DNA of 64,000 bases from Lacunisphaera limnophila. Its GTDB lineage: Bacteria > Verrucomicrobiota > Verrucomicrobiia > Opitutales > Opitutaceae. Shown one piece after another: positions 62,170 to 63,844 of this stretch. The stretch spans positions 2,743,501 through 2,807,500 of the forward strand of contig NZ_CP016094.1 in NCBI RefSeq assembly GCF_001746835.1. Reading direction: 5' to 3'. The stretch's first letter is position 1, and the number at the start of each line of letters is the position of its first letter. The notes under the pieces were generated by a model. The model made no database searches. It was not told the DNA's origin and saw nothing but the letters and a program-made list of their open reading frames with translations. Both the position numbers and the translations under genes were made by a program.

Positions 62170-62265
62170 GGCCAGGCGCCATGCATGGGCAGGCGCGTGA
62201 ACCCCGCCAGGGCCGGAAGGCAGCAACGGTGACGACGTCCTCCCAGTGCCGTGGATTGCCTGGCC
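62170..62265 (+). ncRNA. ffs: Signal recognition particle RNA, small bacterial type (4.5S)
   Basis: About 96 bases. The ends GGCCAGGC and GCCTGGCC pair. The apical domain carries the invariant Ffh-binding loops and GGAA tetraloop (CCAGGGCCGGAAGGCAGCA). The RNA binds Ffh and FtsY for membrane protein targeting. It lies just upstream of dnaX, a gene neighbourhood also seen in other bacteria. The 310-base stretch 62072-62381 is fully explained by the terminator, promoter, this RNA and a leader of dnaX. Confidence 0.93.
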
Positions 62266-62381
62266 ACTTTATTTTCGATCCTGGATTCCTGATTTCCAGC
62301 GGCACGGCCCGAGCGGCGAGGTCAAACTGAACATCAGGCTCGCCTTTCTGTTTTTCTGACCTCTGATTTCCGGCTTCGCGC

Positions 62382-63527
62382 ATGTCCGGCTCCTACCAAG
62401 TCATCGCCCGCAAGTGGCGTCCGCAGACCTTCGACGACGTCGTCGGGCAGGACCATGTGGTGCGGACGCTCAAGAACGCCATCGCCCGCAACCGGATCGC
62501 GCACGCCTACCTGCTGGTCGGCCCGCGCGGCACGGGCAAGACGAGCACCGCGCGCATTTTCGCCAAGGCACTCAACGCCGCGGGCGGACCCAACGCCGAT
62601 TTTGACCCCGCCGATCCGATCGCCACCTCCATTGCGGAGGGCCGGTGCCTCGATGTGATCGAGTTCGACGCCGCGTCGAACACCCAGGTAGACAAAGTGC
62701 GCGAGTTCATCATCGACACCGTCGCCTACGCGCCCGCCGAGGGGCGGTTCAAGGTCTACATCATCGACGAGGTACACATGCTCTCGGCCGGCTCGTTCAA
62801 CGCGCTGCTCAAGACGCTGGAGGAGCCCCCGGCGCACGTGAAGTTCATCTTCGCCACGACCGATCCCCAGAAGATGCCGGCCACGGTCATCTCCCGGTGC
62901 CAGCGGTTCGACCTCAAGCCGATCCCGACCGAGCTGATCGTGCAGCGGCTGAAGAAGATCGCCGGCAGCGAGAAGATCAAGGTGAGCGACGCCGCCCTGG
63001 CCAGCATCGCGCGCATGGCCGATGGCGGCATGCGCGACGCCCAGTCCATTTTTGACCAGATGATCTCCTTCTGCGGCGCCGAGATCGGCGAGGCGGACGT
63101 GCTGGATGTCTACGGCCTGGTCTCGGCGGCCAAGATCGCCGAGCTCGGCGCGGCGCTCGCGGCGGGCCAGCACAAGAAGATCGTGGCGATCGTGGACGAT
63201 TGCGACGAGAACGGCCGTGATCTTTACCGGTTGCTCGTGGACCTGCAAACCCACCTGCAGGGCGCGTTGCTAGATTCGATCGCCAAGGGCGGCCAGAGCG
63301 AGGTCCTCGGCACCCCGATGACCACCGAACAGCTCACGCGCCTGCTGGACGGGCTGCGCGAAGGGGAGAACGCCGTGAAGCACGGCCTGTCCGAGAAGGT
63401 GAATTTCGAGGTGGCGCTGCTCAAGGCCGTCGAGGCCAGCCGCGCCCGGGCGATCGACAGCCTGATCCGGGAGATCGCCACGCTGGCCGACGGCCTGCCC
63501 GCCGACGGCTCAAAAAAAAACGACTGA
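62382..63527 (+). CDS. dnaX: DNA polymerase III tau/gamma subunit, zero-frame (short) form
   Basis: The short form has 381 residues. AAA+ motifs are [18 protein letters not shown] (Walker A about 47-54), [11 protein letters not shown] (Walker B), [12 protein letters not shown] (sensor 1) and the SRC motif [11 protein letters not shown]. Domain III follows (about 240-370). The usual four-cysteine zinc module after Walker A is missing: only one Cys lies between Walker A and DAASN. The frame ends in SKKND after a run of nine A residues. A slip to the -1 frame continues to 63844 (see separate entry). DnaX loads the sliding clamp and couples polymerases. Confidence 0.94.
63512..63520 (+). promoter_or_regulatory. 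A9 slippery run at the end of dnaX
   Basis: Nine consecutive A residues read in the dnaX frame as TCA AAA AAA AAC. Both ribosomal -1 frameshifting (A AAA AAA or A AAA AAC heptamers) and transcriptional slippage are known at such runs; the Thermus dnaX gene uses a nine-A run. The zero frame stops 6 codons or fewer later, while the -1 frame stays open for 108 codons. Confidence 0.75.
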
Positions 63528-63844
63528 CGCGGCCGGCTGAGACGCCGACGGCCGAGGATGCCGGAGCGCGGCCGGGGGACGGGGACGCGGCGGCGCCGGT
63601 TGCCGATGCCCCGCTCGGGCCCACCTCCGAGGAAGAAGCGGCGTTCCTGGCTCAGGAGCGGGAAATGGGCATCGTGACCCCCGCTCTGACGCACACGGAA
63701 AACGTGCCGGAGGAAAAGGGCGACCTGCCGCCGATGGACGACCTGGTGAAGCGGATCCCGATGCCGGCCCGCGACCTGATGGAGGAGCTGTTCCGGGCGA
63801 AATTTGTGACCGTGAAACGGATCCCGCAATCTGCGCTCAAGTGA
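63518..63844 (+). CDS. dnaX: C-terminal tail of the long DnaX form, read in the -1 frame
   Basis: The -1 frame from the slippery run encodes 108 residues and stops at TGA 63842-63844, giving a predicted 487-residue long form. The first part is an acidic Ala/Pro/Gly/Asp linker ([19 protein letters not shown]). A compact end follows with [17 protein letters not shown] and [17 protein letters not shown], which looks like a folded, conserved-type terminus. No good independent start codon or ribosome site precedes it, which favours frameshift or slippage. A sequencing indel in the A run is the main alternative. Confidence 0.7.

Follow-up and report, generated by a model that had tools for sequence, protein, structure and literature searches.

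In Escherichia coli, the dnaX slip site A_AAA_AAG is assisted by Shine-Dalgarno-like (SD-like) and stem-loop stimulators, and tau is read in the 0 frame (PMC3711429). The dnaX gene of Thermus thermophilus is described as using slippage on a run of nine A residues (A9), with tau made from the faithful transcript and stop codons nearby in both other frames (PMC5009743 and PMC1088944). A two-ORF dnaX was described by Antonov et al. (2013, PMC3711429; GeneTack) for 17 fs-genes from 12 genera, nine with A10, in which tau is reached by a -1 shift and for which transcriptional realignment was proposed. This reversed organisation is repeated by Atkins et al. (2016, PMC5009743) and in PMC4066793. The main text of Antonov et al. 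(2013, PMC3711429) makes no mention of Opitutus dnaX among the 17 genes.

Here, a stretch of 64,000 nucleotides from Lacunisphaera limnophila (NZ_CP016094.1, positions 2,743,501 to 2,807,500; hereafter the window) was analyzed together with dnaX loci of its genus, its family (Opitutaceae) and its order (Opitutales). By its layout, the window dnaX belongs to the two-ORF kind already described, and we consider it likely that the gene yields two DnaX proteins through transcriptional slippage on an A9 run.

The dnaX junction and its tail

The features of the locus, in window coordinates, are as follows.

62170..62268, + strand: small bacterial SRP RNA gene, a neighbour (Rfam RF00169, 65 bits, E 4.6e-13)
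62382..63527, + strand: dnaX 0-frame ORF, 381 amino acids (aa), gamma-like, with clamp-loader domains I-III (sequence reading and Pfam)
63512..63520, + strand: A9 slippery run (direct sequence reading)
63518..63844, + strand: -1 frame tail, 108 codons plus stop, the tau-specific part (ORF reading, purifying selection in the genus)
63525..63527, + strand: 0-frame stop TGA, end of gamma (direct sequence reading)
63538..63540, + strand: +1-frame stop TGA, third frame shut 6 codons past the run (direct sequence reading)
63725..63841, + strand: conserved C-terminal segment of the tail, 39 aa (genus tail profile, predicted helices)

The 0-frame protein matched PF13177 (E 4.5e-34, residues 23-181), the lid family PF22608 (E 1.3e-13, residues 186-232) and the domain III family PF12169 (E 6.2e-6, residues 236-357) in Pfam. 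Its gene ends in TCA AAA AAA AAC GAC TGA, the stop finishing 7 nt past the A9 run, in agreement with the original prediction of nine A followed by a stop within 8 bases. The -1 frame opens at the AAA at 63518 and was read directly through 108 codons to its stop at 63842-63844, just as had been predicted, and one base re-read or one A added would give a tau-like fusion of 487 aa. Absent from that prediction were the +1-frame stop, which closes the third frame, and the earlier account of this dnaX type by Antonov et al. Three dnaX ends are possible, namely gamma (381 aa), a gamma extended by a few codons, and tau (487 aa). Both forms had also been called unusually short. This stands in comparison with E. 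coli but not within the lineage, where tails range from 103 to 127 codons among genus loci and from 96 to 231 among the remaining family loci. The SRP RNA gene lies just upstream of dnaX and is no part of the slippage signal.

According to the proposed mechanism, RNA polymerase would stutter on the A9 run (T9 on the template) and release mRNAs with varying numbers of A. The faithful A9 transcript would give gamma with domains I-III, one extra A (or 1+3n) would bring the ribosome into the -1 frame to give tau, and A8 or A11 transcripts would end 6 codons on as another gamma. The long form is probably obtainable only by RNA polymerase slippage on the run. The window gene would then encode neither product by itself: tau would need a transcription error, and gamma would be guarded by two stops in the remaining frames.

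A chance origin of the run was dismissed. Only two A8/T8 matches occur in the 64-kb window, both inside the dnaX run, and shuffled windows contained a mean of 0.24 such matches, with two reached in 4 of 100 shuffles. Genome-wide (4,199,284 bases in one contig), the dnaX run is one of just three A9+/T9+ runs. The other two are intergenic, as judged from ORF lists read by eye. Of these two runs (L259:1501-1509 and L260:1501-1510), one stands in front of a NusA-like gene and the remaining one between converging response regulator and histidine kinase genes (all names assigned by eye), where it is perhaps part of a terminator.

As judged by codon comparisons, the tail is genuine coding sequence. 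Across 21 genus loci it is under purifying selection, with a median dN/dS of 0.32 over 191 pairs. Single-base codon differences over the genus tail were synonymous in 5656 cases and nonsynonymous in 3062, and the last 45 codons alone accounted for 3167 synonymous versus 827 nonsynonymous differences. Run for four rounds, a profile built from 19 genus tails matched the C-terminal segment in 230 of the 256 order loci and had no match in 26. The structure predicted for the tail alone consists mostly of linker plus two confident C-terminal helices (tail residues 73-78 and 82-92; pLDDT blocks 87-91), and with a mean pLDDT of 71.9 and a pTM of 0.25 for the whole tail, only these helices are trusted in the model. 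A Pfam search of the tail returned no known domain, and a PDB search returned no relative, the best match (superoxide dismutase, E 0.22) being taken as chance. Using hhalign, the tail end (12 residues) was set on the C-terminal motif E-FKG-IVEVR of ordinary single-frame DnaX with scores of 19.5 and 21.6, compared to 7.9-13.0 for ten column shuffles, at probabilities of just 3 and 8% over 14-17 columns. The tail end is likely homologous to this motif of other DnaX proteins. The C-terminus of E. coli tau contacts the polymerase (PMC3290774), and by analogy the conserved tail segment may bind the polymerase as the tau C-terminus does elsewhere.

The run, the closed frames and the tau register among relatives

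Of 326 genomes, 304 yielded a dnaX gene at E ≤ 1e-60. The main set comprised 256 order loci from 255 genomes (one genome being represented twice), 254 of which reach the site; L037 and L130, both from the own family, end before it and were dropped. Twenty check loci chosen from under-sampled families were added, and 29 genomes with dnaX, mostly small and divergent (none of family f28), were left out.

The run is present in all 21 genus loci (20 with A9 and one with A10). At least nine A were found at the site in 151 of the 151 own-family loci reaching it, in 243/254 order loci of the main set and in 13/20 added loci (256/274 together). Run lengths in the order are mostly A10 (177) and A9 (60), and no family locus has the run shortened to A7-A8. 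Families f6, f7, f25 and f27 are without the run (0/13 loci), and elsewhere at least nine A occur in 256/261; all seven added loci without the run come from f7 and f25. Some of the members of these four run-less families have small genomes, and wherever a tau was detected in these families it occupied the 0 frame. Alignment of relatives, put forward with the original prediction as its first check, therefore bore out the conservation of the A run and of both frames at the genus, family and order levels.

The run is kept against codon preference. Relatives' dnaX genes favour G at third positions, NAA being used in 33% of cases and AAA making up 32% of Lys codons (110 A10 loci counted), values that were drawn from loci already chosen for A10 or A9. 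Lys is encoded in the window dnaX by 20 AAG and one AAA. Keeping nine A despite a preference for AAG and NNG, when a ribosomal shift site needs seven, points to transcriptional slippage.

The register of tau was labelled in 243 order loci, 230 by the tail profile and 13 by the open frame alone. Of these, 185 have tau at -1, 38 in the 0 frame and 20 at +1. In the own family it is at -1 in 146 of 149 labelled loci, the others (L006, L161 and L170) having an in-frame tau and a run of A10, A11 or A12; L006, from the same genus, has A10 and a single continuous dnaX frame. The +1 loci belong to families f8 (5), f16 (7), f19 (3), f20 (3) and f22 (2). For f19 and f22, the tail profile also placed added loci in the +1 register; in two added f16 loci the +1 frame is open in both, with a weak tail match (E 0.02) in one and none in the other. 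One A more is enough to move the register, from +1 at A10 to -1 at A11 in f8 and from -1 at A10 to the 0 frame at A11 in f1. Among the f8 loci L180, L181, L185, L191, L194 and L207 and the f16 loci, tau is at +1 with A10, one A11 member of f8 being at -1.

Mapped on a FastTree tree, the register changes at least 17 times, or at least 14 if a state must occur twice in a family, and shuffled labels required 50 or more changes in 100 shuffles. These change counts are approximate, because the tree has weak support at 83 of its 253 inner branches and contains flagged long branches, and some of the changes may reflect miscounted run lengths in draft genomes.

Both non-tau frames are shut within 10 codons in 207 of the 223 loci scored (21/21 genus, 123/128 family and 63/74 other loci), scoring having covered 223 of 243 loci with at least nine A and left out the 20 without a tail match. 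At other positions in the same genes such closure occurs in 5, 6 and 12% (genus, family and other, respectively). Synonymous shuffling of the tail gave 13, 33 and 28%, and that much of the closure (13-33%) is explained by the tau-frame sequence itself. The open stretch of a non-tau frame exceeds 10 codons in 16/223 scored loci and 20 codons in six; among added loci with both run and tail match, it exceeds 10 codons in 3/11. In the 20 genus A9 loci the +1 stop lies exactly 6 codons past the run, spelled TGA except in L004, which has TAG along with different tau residues.

Runs shorter than nine A were found in 18 loci, with tau in the 0 frame in 11, at -1 in one and no tail found in six. The main set contributed 11 of these loci (six, one and four, respectively) and families f7 and f25 the seven added ones (five in the 0 frame and two without tail match). 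This coupling of a short run with a tau mostly in the 0 frame points to slippage. Relatives with a continuous single-frame dnaX, which had been named as speaking against the original prediction, do exist (three in the own family and many in the order), but most of them keep the run and two closed frames, and for that reason such relatives support slippage rather than refute it.

Probable transcriptional slippage and its alternatives

The window run has nine A, the length from which a homopolymer of A or T is counted as a candidate for programmed slippage, and the non-tau frames are shut 2 and 6 codons past it, as expected of nearby stops. Genes for tRNA-Lys with UUU and CUU anticodons are both present (30 of 42 tRNA loci scanned), a situation that Atkins et al. 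(2016, PMC5009743) tie to slippage in Thermus. Antonov et al. (2013, PMC3711429) regard differing shift directions among orthologues as a mark of transcriptional realignment. Their own dnaX genes, all of the -1 type, offered no occasion to use this rule, but in the order studied here the predicted shifts in dnaX do differ in direction.

A programmed -1 ribosomal frameshift on A_AAA_AAA or A_AAA_AAC, perhaps with a downstream structure, was weighed against this reading. It could serve the prevailing -1 register of the own family, slippery heptamers are present, and the common family junction, GAA AAA AAA AAG, includes the E. coli heptamer A_AAA_AAG. Atkins et al. (2016, PMC5009743) describe one two-ORF dnaX (Chlorobium) with E. 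coli-like stimulators. L176 (family f21) has a two-frame dnaX that retains its -1 tail although the junction run is only A6, and it possibly uses ribosomal frameshifting itself.

Downstream structure was assessed by folding, consensus folding and pair counting. The 60 and 80 nt downstream of the window run fold no better than shuffles (z of +0.69 and +0.45). Mean z values for downstream stability were -0.21 (21 genus loci), -0.41 (60 of 130 family loci) and -0.43 (60 of 92 other loci), with z below -2 in 8/60 family and 8/60 other loci; the 60-nt family stretches are somewhat stabler than gene controls (-21.3 versus -17.7 kcal/mol, 60 of 130 loci). In 7/21 genus, 18/130 family and 9/90 other loci, the run is followed on its 3' side by a hairpin that outranks 95% of gene windows. 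A 7-bp hairpin can be drawn about 10 nt past the run in several genus loci, and 58.5% of the cells of this helix pair, a value equalled by 7 of 500 shuffles. However, the helix was picked by eye, each of its pairs fails in 5 to 11 of 21 loci, 48 of 500 shuffles equalled its covariation score and a slid control surpassed it, and RNAalifold over the 21 genus loci returned zero pairs. Upstream SD-like pairing, best at 14 nt upstream, is equalled by 33% of gene windows in the genus. In L008, L014, L018, L021, L022 and other genus loci, the short hairpin about 10 nt past the run carries the +1 stop in its loop (TGAG or TGAC); other members of the genus lack this hairpin, and in the window it does not reach significance. 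A stimulatory stem-loop was dismissed on these grounds, being found in some genus relatives, about a third of them, but neither conserved nor present in the window, which upholds the original statement that no obvious stem-loop follows the run.

A -1 ribosomal shift, moreover, explains neither the nine A nor the closed +1 frame, and tau at +1 cannot come from it, so that the +1-register relatives would be unable to use it. We therefore regard ribosomal frameshifting as rather unlikely for the window gene. Slippage had been preferred from the outset over a stimulated frameshift, and it is now favoured because the register switches between -1, 0 and +1, both other frames are shut and no conserved stem-loop stands out. 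From this we infer that the slip occurs during transcription, at a rate that would set the ratio of the two products.

The tail could instead be a cistron of its own, translated without any fusion by ribosomes that terminate and reinitiate at the dnaX stop, and the two ORFs do overlap. The window tau frame, however, has no ATG, GTG or TTG near that stop, and up to 8 codons from the stop this frame offers ATG in only 9/146 and any of the three in 49/146 own-family loci, a scatter that leaves no start conserved. The existence of relatives whose tau is in frame at this site also argues against reinitiation, which is very improbable.

Phase variation, in which the length of the DNA run would change and cells would switch between gamma only and tau, is in accord with the variation of run length and register between species (29 run-length changes on the tree). 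The closure of the third frame, together with a run length that holds steady at A9-A10, instead suggests a use for every transcript class, and an essential part of the replicase is an unlikely contingency gene. This explanation is less probable still. A sequencing or assembly error, or a decaying gene, could be suspected, as homopolymers are error-prone and L006 has A10 with one continuous frame. The identical split in 20/21 genus loci led us to dismiss sequencing error, and the purifying selection on the tail also speaks against decay; an artefact or a dying gene is barely conceivable here.

Meaning and comparison with described systems

Transcriptional slippage would make the dnaX of this order 'register-free'. 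If every round of transcription supplies all three frames, single-A insertions and deletions in the run would be near-neutral and the frame of tau would drift, with selection acting on the run and the closed frames and so keeping both gamma and tau. We lean towards this reading, and if it is true, the +1 register of f8, f16, f19, f20 and f22 adds a third organisation to those known for dnaX. It is a matter of debate why gamma is produced by bacteria at all. Repeated register switching with both products kept provides strong comparative evidence that the gamma and tau pair, not tau alone, would be what is selected. The relatives form a natural set of run lengths and registers with which the slippage rate and the tau:gamma ratio could be measured. 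For annotation, the dnaX genes of the own family are routinely at risk of being called truncated or pseudogenes. The order-wide drift of the register is the part most worth following; a literature search, with most subscription papers outside its reach, turned up neither a published +1 dnaX nor any account of a register that switches inside one order.

Outside the order, dnaX takes other forms. All 13 class loci have one long frame, with no A8+ in the scanned stretch. Of 95 loci scanned as outside the order (L263-L266 among the scanned loci belong to it), nine are Thermus-like: their A9-A10 run falls between residues 360 and 430, tau is read in the 0 frame and the other frames are shut within 12 codons. 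These candidates (L271, L276, L278, L282, L283, L285, L297, L333 and L364, with A9-A10 near residues 378-427) span several phyla, from records titled Pyrinomonadaceae, Ignavibacteria, Bacteroidetes, Desulfobacteraceae and Verrucomicrobia, among others.

The window gene shares with E. coli dnaX an A-rich slip site and the derivation of gamma and tau from one gene, but it has no in-phase A_AAA_AAG (TCA AAA AAA AAC) and no stem-loop signal, and its tau lies at -1. As in Shigella flexneri mxiE (Baranov 2005, PMC1088944), the longer product would need slippage, although mxiE is an unrelated gene with a T/U run. Closer is Thermus thermophilus dnaX, likewise with A9 at the end of domain III, close stops in the non-tau frames and both tau and gamma from one gene; there the faithful transcript gives tau and the slipped one gamma, whereas in the window the 0 frame ends at 63527 and the faithful transcript would give gamma. 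The two-ORF dnaX of Antonov et al. has the same overlapping ORFs, poly-A junction, gamma in the 0 frame and tau via a -1 shift. Unlike that set, for which -1 only is reported in the published account, the order examined here also holds tau at +1.
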